A DNA stretch of 64,000 bases from the NCBI RefSeq assembly GCF_018304825.1, contig NZ_CP072648.1:1285501-1349500 (forward strand), read 5' to 3'. Positions 4,170 through 6,083 of the stretch are shown piece by piece; position 1 is the first letter of the stretch; every line of letters starts with the position of its first letter. Made by a program: the position numbers and the translations under genes. Source of the stretch: Chloracidobacterium validum. Lineage in GTDB: Bacteria > Acidobacteriota > Blastocatellia > Chloracidobacteriales > Chloracidobacteriaceae. The notes beneath the pieces were generated by a model. It did not search any database. It was not told where the DNA came from and saw only the letters and a program-made list of their open reading frames with translations.

Positions 4170-6083
4170 ATGATGACGACACTGATTCACTGGCTTGGGC
4201 AATCCTGGCTCTCCGCCCTGATTGACCTAGTGCTGGTGTTTTTCGTCGTATATGAGGTCTTGAAGCTCCTCAAGGGAACGCGGGCCGCCCAGGTGGCCAT
4301 TGGCATTGCCATTGTGGCGTTGCTTTACCAGGCCTCCCACTGGTTGCGCTTACCGACGCTGGAGTTTGTCATTCGGCATAGCCTGCTCTACGTTGGGTTT
4401 GCCGCGGTCGTGCTGTTTCAAAACGAAATCCGTACTGCCTTCGCCCGATTTGGAACGAACTTACGGCTTCCAGCTAGGTTTGGATGGCGTGCGCCCAAAT
4501 CTCCGGTGGCGCAGTACGAGGACGTGCTGCTGGCGGTGACGACCTTTGCCGCAAAGAAAACCGGTGCGCTGATCGTGTTTGAACGTCAGGACGACCTGGA
4601 TGAGTATATTGCTCGCGGCGTCAAACTCGATGCGCTCGTGGGCTATGACCTGCTGATCAACATCTTCAATCCAGAGGCTCCGCTCCATGATGGCGCCGTG
4701 ATCATTCGTCAGGGACGTATTGCCGCCGCAAGTTGCTTTTTACCGCTGACGCTCAATCCACGGCTGTCGAAAGACACCGGGACGCGCCACCGCTCGGCAA
4801 TTGGGGTCACTGAGGAAAGCGATGCCTTTGTCATTGTTGTCTCTGAAGAGACTGGGATGGTGTCGTGCGTCGAGGGCGGCCAGATCAAGCGCGGGCTTGG
4901 CATTCGGGAAGTTCGGGCGCAACTGTCACGCGCCTTGAATACGCCGACCGGTCAGGCGACGCCGGTCCGGCGGCGGCGGCGAACCATAATGGATGACGCC
5001 TCAAACGTGGATTTTCTAACCGCCGAACCGCGAAGTGAAACCAGCGAGACGCCATCCACCGGTACACCAGCGCTGATCGGCGAAGGGCAACGCTCGCGGT
5101 TGAGTGAACGCGGAGCGCTCGATCTGGCAGCCATCTGGCGACAGGGTCAGCACTGGTCAGCCTGGTTAGGTGAGAAAGCGCGGGTGCTGATTGTCGAGAA
5201 CTTCTTACTCAAGCTCATCGCTGCGCTCATGACCAGCGCCCTGTGGCTTTCGGCAACCAAGCAAGACGCGATTCCGTTTGTCTTGCGTGGCGTTCCGATC
5301 AATTACCAGGGCTTGCGGGAAGACCTCGTCATTGCCAATGGCAGTGATGTGCAAGAAGTTACCTTGCGGGTGCGTGGTCCGCGCGACGTGGTTGAGCGCC
5401 TGCGCCCTGAGTCGTTTGTGGTCACCGTCCCCCTGGACGGCAAGAGTCCGGGCGACCGGGTGATTTTGCTCCGTGAAGACGCAAGAATCGAAAAACCCAC
5501 CGGGGTTGAGATTCTCGAAATTGAACCAGCGCGGATTACCCTGAGTCTGGAGCGCCAGGTGGAACAGCAAGTCGAGATCAAGCCAAACTTTCGTGGGGTG
5601 TTGCCGGTTGACCGGGAAGTGGCCGAGTACCAAGTAACGCCGCCGGTGACAAAGCTGCGCGGGCCGGAGGCCTTGGTCTATGCCTTGCAGTCAGTCGGCA
5701 CTGAGACCATTTGGCTCAATACCCATGACCGATCCTTTACCGAACGCTACAAAGTGGATGTCAAGGACCCACGAATCGCCATTATTGGCGCGCAGGAAGT
5801 CGAAGTGAGGGTAGCGATTCGGCCGATTATCGTCCGCCGGCGTCTGGAGATAGTTCTGGATGTGCCCGGCACACCCCCAACGCGCATCGAGGTCACTGTG
5901 GAAGGGCCGAAGTCAGTTGTTGAGAAGCTACGCGCGCGCGATTTCCAAGTGACCGTCGGGAAGGAGCTGGTATCGGAGCGTCCGCCCCGGCGGTCCGTCG
6001 TGGTGACGCCTCCCGCCGATGTCGCCGACCAAGTGCAGATTGTCAACGTCAACCCCGGCGAGGTTGTCAATCGCGCGCCCTGA
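4170..6083 (+). CDS. cdaA: Diadenylate cyclase CdaA fused to CdaR/YbbR regulatory region
   Basis: This single chain of 637 residues has three N-terminal membrane helices (about 12-90), then a DisA_N/DAC cyclase domain with the catalytic DGA (174-176, in LHDGAVII) and RHR (206-208, in TRHRSAIG) motifs. It should convert two ATP to c-di-AMP at the membrane. After a polar linker (about 260-335) comes another membrane helix (344-362, NFLLKLIAALMTSALWL), as at the start of CdaR, followed by about three YbbR repeats (roughly 366-450, 455-540, 545-630). In Firmicutes cdaA and cdaR are separate neighbouring genes. AGAGGGA lies upstream of the start. No glmM follows; the next gene is convergent. Confidence 0.9.
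   Translation: MMTTLIHWLGQSWLSALIDLVLVFFVVYEVLKLLKGTRAAQVAIGIAIVALLYQASHWLRLPTLEFVIRHSLLYVGFAAVVLFQNEIRTAFARFGTNLRLPARFGWRAPKSPVAQYEDVLLAVTTFAAKKTGALIVFERQDDLDEYIARGVKLDALVGYDLLINIFNPEAPLHDGAVIIRQGRIAAASCFLPLTLNPRLSKDTGTRHRSAIGVTEESDAFVIVVSEETGMVSCVEGGQIKRGLGIREVRAQLSRALNTPTGQATPVRRRRRTIMDDASNVDFLTAEPRSETSETPSTGTPALIGEGQRSRLSERGALDLAAIWRQGQHWSAWLGEKARVLIVENFLLKLIAALMTSALWLSATKQDAIPFVLRGVPINYQGLREDLVIANGSDVQEVTLRVRGPRDVVERLRPESFVVTVPLDGKSPGDRVILLREDARIEKPTGVEILEIEPARITLSLERQVEQQVEIKPNFRGVLPVDREVAEYQVTPPVTKLRGPEALVYALQSVGTETIWLNTHDRSFTERYKVDVKDPRIAIIGAQEVEVRVAIRPIIVRRRLEIVLDVPGTPPTRIEVTVEGPKSVVEKLRARDFQVTVGKELVSERPPRRSVVVTPPADVADQVQIVNVNPGEVVNRAP

Follow-up and report, generated by a model that had tools for sequence, protein, structure and literature searches.

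The closest described system is that of Bacillota, in which the cyclase CdaA and the regulator CdaR are encoded by separate genes of a cdaA-cdaR-glmM operon. According to the passages of the reports considered here, the two proteins interact (PMC6368335), with CdaR touching CdaA at its membrane part and GlmM touching it at the DAC domain (PMC6368335, PMC8316131), and CdaR was enriched in S. mutans pull-downs with DacA (PMC13289029). The signal perceived by CdaR and its mode of action on CdaA are unsettled. In the same passages, c-di-AMP increased upon loss of CdaR in P. gingivalis (PMC9259658) and in S. aureus (PMC11520302), it also increased when the B. subtilis proteins were co-expressed in E. 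coli (PMC8316131), and one study of S. aureus YbbR did not find conclusive evidence for its role (PMC6368335). As CdaR is thus reported to lower, raise or leave c-di-AMP, the direction of control in a fused chain is unpredictable.

The window analyzed here, the whole stretch of 64,000 nucleotides from Chloracidobacterium validum, contains a gene with the same modules, in the same order and with the same implied topology as those of the Bacillota operon, with one chain here as opposed to two chains there. The contrast with Firmicutes drawn in the first-pass annotation, where the two genes are adjacent and separate, was borne out. A match was found in 176 of 199 Bacillota genomes, and among the matches listed there was no stop-free fusion; each of those that extend beyond position 300 of the profile, and hence into YbbR, has at least one stop. 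In the best of these (G546) the proteins are separate ORFs of 270 and 308 aa. One Bacillota locus (L195:1234-2253, minus strand) encodes a 339-aa CdaA with an extra hydrophobic stretch resembling the CdaR helix, followed by a stop; it has no Pfam YbbR match and is perhaps a decayed or shifted pair.

A cyclase and its regulator in one chain

The gene (4170..6083, plus strand, as are all features below) encodes 637 aa in a single frame with no internal stops, and the ORF, Pfam and NCBIfam profiles, genomes of the family and a predicted structure all confirm that CdaA and CdaR are joined in one intact chain, as the first-pass annotation had proposed. The chain passes the NCBIfam model for CdaA (TIGR00159, 219.3 bits against a cut-off of 188.8), and Pfam places the DAC diadenylate cyclase domain at residues 122-238 (4533..4883, E 1.5e-41). 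This domain carries the DGA (residues 174-176, 4689..4697) and GTRHR motifs expected of a CdaA-type cyclase; the DGA and the RHR (residues 206-208, 4785..4793) are where they had been read at the outset and are invariant across ten fused relatives. The preceding membrane helices (residues 2-98, 4173..4463) resemble CdaA_N, whose Pfam match at residues 16-87 scores 21.8 bits, just below the cut-off of 23.8; among relatives one locus is above it (L019, 27.6 bits) and another below (L036, 22.6 bits).

The AlphaFold2 model of the chain has a mean pLDDT of 81 and a pTM of 0.44, so that the placement of the domains relative to each other is unreliable. It shows N-terminal helices at 2-34, 39-59, 62-83 and 85-98, and residues 109-258 match solved DacA/CdaA structures, best 6gyw (Z 26.9); the DAC domain matches DacA of S. 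aureus and CdaA of B. subtilis. Between the cyclase and CdaR parts, about 58 residues (261-318, 4950..5123) with Arg-rich and SET/ETP-rich stretches have a pLDDT below 50 and are probably a disordered linker. A juxtamembrane helix comes next (residues 319-342, 5124..5195). The layout that follows is of the CdaR type by profiles, predicted structure and structure matches: a membrane helix and several YbbR domains. The membrane helix had been recognized from the sequence, and its presence stands, with its limits moved from 344-362 to 345-363 in the model (5202..5258).

The expected count of about three YbbR repeats also agrees with the data, as does the presence of a YbbR-like fold after residue 360. 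Three beta-rich domains are modelled, mostly with pLDDT above 90, at approximately 367-457 (5268..5540), 458-552 (5541..5825) and 554-633 (5829..6068), and Pfam gives three YbbR stretches at a lax threshold (E<=1), the YbbR match scoring 39.3 bits against a cut-off of 22.3 (E 8.2e-10). Residues within 357-561, a range that takes in the first two domains, match the YbbR structure 4qdy (Z 10.7, rmsd 7.4), together with 3lyw, 5hqh, 2kpu, 2kxy and 2kq1 (Z 8.8-10.6) and 2l3u (Z 7.5). The third, the least conserved, is covered by none of the listed solved-structure matches; its YbbR-like character is suggested by the model together with one weak stretch of the profile match. A sequence-only search of solved structures with the YbbR part returned 2l3u as the only match (E 0.045).

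Distribution in Acidobacteriota and relation to separate genes

A DAC match was found in 14 of 14 genomes of the order. Within the family, the fusion is present in all ten genomes, representing four genera, in frames of 642-685 codons with ORFs of 637-671 aa containing both modules; none of these has CdaR as a separate protein beside cdaA. An assembly or sequencing artefact, whose probability we regard as negligible, is thus rejected: a frameshift or internal stop was sought as its sign and none was found, and ten separate genomes carry a stop-free chain with both modules. Loci L046-L050 come from five of these ten and are not additional cases. The genome of the window (3.66 Mb, two contigs) has one DAC match only, and its single YbbR match outside the fusion is weak and sits in the C-terminal end of a 771-aa protein that does not resemble CdaR.

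The idea that the fusion is conserved across Acidobacteriota did not hold. In a sample of 149 genomes of the phylum, 121 have a DAC match, and frames longer than 500 codons occur only in four genomes of this family and in the metagenome-assembled genome (MAG) G104; many of the loci in the sample were judged by frame length alone, and ORFs were inspected for L002-L030 and ten further loci. The sample and the ORF inspection together reject a general fusion in the phylum: it is fixed in one family, and elsewhere in the sample none was seen except the G104 copy, which belongs to another group (see below). Among L002-L030, the best-scoring loci of the phylum search, 27 are unfused; every one of these has a ybbR ORF next to cdaA, and in nine the two overlap by 4 bases. 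The ten further loci were picked mostly for long open frames; eight have separate ORFs, and two (L205 and L041) have no YbbR.

The nearest CdaA relatives in the trees are those of a sister family (branch support 85/69 and 92/77), and in a tree of the membrane-DAC part the fusions of the family form one clade (100/99) inside unfused Blastocatellia CdaA. Two sister genomes, G155 and G156, have separate cdaA (309 and 310 aa) and ybbR (328 aa) genes with spacers of 35 and 39 bp, as opposed to one chain in the fusion, and the sister YbbR has three Pfam stretches as the fusion does. In G158, placed with them in the trees, cdaA is present with no YbbR match. In G157 the ybbR gene is on another contig and the DAC match is weak (L041, E 1.7e-10); its frame is 604 codons long and may encode a cyclase of another kind.

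The distance from residue 257 to 344 is 87 codons in the fusion, and the equivalent distances in the sister family, spacer included, are 263 bp (87.7 codons) and 270 bp (90 codons). The length of the linker therefore equals the old CdaA tail plus the spacer plus the YbbR N-terminus, as expected from stop loss and read-through, and it is likely, judging from these lengths, that the fusion originated when the cdaA stop was lost and the spacer was read through. Since the G155 spacer is out of frame and that of G156 contains further stops, more than one change would have been needed. Taken from anchor residue 258 to anchor residue 343, the linker is 84-88 aa long in all ten genomes; it is poorly conserved (31-66% identity to that of the window), and the SET/ETP stretch recurs in linkers of the family.

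In five pairs of sequences, dN/dS is about 0.01-0.13 for the N-terminal membrane part and DAC, 0.03-0.14 for YbbR1-2, 0.11-0.29 for YbbR3 and 0.17-0.56 for the linker (one linker ratio not computable), rough values as many dS are near or above 1. These ratios indicate purifying selection on the fusion, weakest in the linker, and, rough as they are, they disfavour YbbR as a neutral passenger.

Unlike the Bacillota operon, no glmM is found downstream of the fusion: the best match in this genome is at C1:413449 and the fusion at about C1:1289670, and in all ten genomes of the family the best match is on another contig or more than 0.8 Mb away. By comparison, a genome of the same class (G009) has, in this order, a CoaBC-type flavoprotein, cdaA, ybbR and a phosphosugar mutase of the GlmM superfamily. 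The neighbours of the fusion are an acyltransferase upstream (PF01553, 2727..4025) and, on the far side of a tRNA-Cys downstream, a lipid A biosynthesis acyltransferase (PF03279, 6661..7665); judged by size and place, similar flanking ORFs are found in L046-L048 and not in L050. Rfam detected two tRNAs only over the window.

As to c-di-AMP turnover, the PgpH profile has no match in this genome or in any of eight genomes of genera g1 and g98, and it was matched in both genomes of genera g2 and g3. The genome encodes three DHH proteins, among which no GdpP was seen: RecJ, a 322-aa protein and a 436-aa protein. The 322-aa protein is nearest to NrnA, though under the cut-off of that model, and could degrade c-di-AMP or pApA. 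The 436-aa protein (L185:883-2193, minus strand) has weak similarity to named phosphoesterases and is a candidate for c-di-AMP turnover. The one TrkA_C domain of the genome is in a sodium/hydrogen-exchanger-type transporter, which is a plausible c-di-AMP receptor.

A second group of fused cyclases

Chains of CdaA and YbbR were also found outside this family, as in a Geobacteraceae locus (L109, 473 aa). A DAC match is present in 192 of 195 Desulfuromonadia genomes, and of 13 regions inspected from among the matches listed nine are fused (L164-L170, L172, L173) and four unfused (L171, L174, L176, L177). By Pfam, L164-L166 have two YbbR stretches and the other six have one. In a Bacteroidota-centred set, with a match in 73 of 118 genomes, two are fused: the YbbR of L192 is above the cut-off and that of L193 below (16.6 bits against 22.3). 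These chains contain CdaA_N, DAC and YbbR like the window fusion, with the YbbR of L193 under the cut-off, and differ from it in having one or two YbbR domains and a shorter linker. Nine of ten Desulfuromonadia genomes with a fused chain have a second CdaA of ordinary length, as recorded for G159, G171, G183, G188, G199, G226, G258, G262 and G324.

The MAG G104, labelled Acidobacteriota, carries a 541-aa CdaA-YbbR-YbbR-LysM chain (L175:959-2584) in addition to an unfused cdaA/ybbR pair; as the chain is grouped with the Desulfuromonadia copies, contamination or transfer is possible. Its LysM domain suggests contact with peptidoglycan.

The chains of the second group cluster together (100/98), apart from the family of the window. 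A single clade for all fusions is rejected with p_AU 0.014 in 55 of the 155 rows of the first tree, and with p_AU 5.6e-5 in a second set, again of 55 rows, which has three rows new to it, including L192 and L193, and lacks others, including L169 and L170; the rows of both sets were chosen by hand. Hits below 60 bits, identical rows and 13 loci presumed to be repeats had been left out before the first tree, and L162, one of the 13, is actually distinct. The first tree required three changes with the single-YbbR Desulfuromonadia chains labelled unfused and two once Pfam showed them to be fused, and two also suffice on the second 55-row tree; on account of the long branches of L175 and L192, the placement of single rows is unsure. 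By these trees the second group is of independent origin, with the same modules in the same order, which points to the same CdaA-CdaR partnership.

Predicted working, rival readings and meaning

We consider it probable, with some reserve, that the membrane-bound cyclase and CdaR are made here as one molecule that works like the separate pair. The fusion keeps the parts that bear the CdaA-CdaR-GlmM contacts of Bacillota, and its implied topology is the same. The N-terminal helices would anchor the DAC domain, on the cytoplasmic side, to the membrane; from there a flexible tether, also cytoplasmic, would run to the CdaR helix, and this helix, passing to the outside, would leave the three YbbR-like domains in the periplasm. 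Two DAC domains are predicted to meet and form c-di-AMP, giving a cyclase dimer in which each chain bears a YbbR rod in the periplasm, a 2:2 unit with neither free CdaA nor free CdaR. As the tether is disordered in the model, any signal should go helix to helix in the membrane; regulation would most likely run where the CdaR helix meets the N-terminal helices, the route proposed for the separate pair, rather than along the linker. The fusion would set partner number and proximity and be by itself no lever. The first-pass annotation had proposed a fixed 1:1 complex with output depending directly on a periplasmic signal. The 1:1 ratio per chain follows if the chain is uncleaved, and direct control by a periplasmic signal may be envisaged, although the separate proteins of Bacillota already interact (PMC6368335). 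The disorder of the linker speaks against a rigid rod, and the fusion need not tighten the coupling of the two halves.

The fusion could also carry no additional signalling meaning, the stop loss having been tolerated because CdaA and CdaR already cooperate. This is a less probable reading that nonetheless deserves weight, as it accords with the adjacency of ybbR in all the unfused loci among L002-L030, with the 4-base overlaps, with a linker length matching plain read-through and with the disorder of that linker. Fixation in four genera, the nearly constant linker length with its recurring SET/ETP stretch and the second independent origin speak for more than tolerance, although neutral fixation would be compatible with them too. 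We think it improbable that the chain is split into CdaA and CdaR during or after translation, be it by proteolysis within the linker or by initiation at an internal codon. Such a long disordered linker could host cleavage, and there is a GTG at codon 339 with AGGTGA upstream of it; however, several relatives have Ala or Thr at this residue, and this particular start is therefore not conserved.

The joined chain is thus a fusion of two known partners that is found throughout the family. In the abstract openings and passages of the literature searched, no description of the fusion was found, and the novelty is provisional, as that scope did not take in a survey of cyclases, 'All DACs in a row' (Galperin 2023, J Bacteriol), where such a fusion would be expected.

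A natural single chain removes the problem of stoichiometry, since a single molecule can be purified and its output followed after its periplasmic part has been shortened or swapped, and it offers a handle on the question of what CdaR senses. We tentatively suggest that a joining reached at least twice marks lineages in which the synthesis of c-di-AMP is tied to a sensor of the envelope, as a one-component transmembrane receptor cyclase of fixed stoichiometry and with no operon-linked GlmM, responding to a periplasmic cue, perhaps the cell wall, a hint given by the LysM domain of one chain in the second group. That the two modules were fused twice, independently and in one order, favours the view that CdaA and CdaR may act as one machine outside Bacillota as well.
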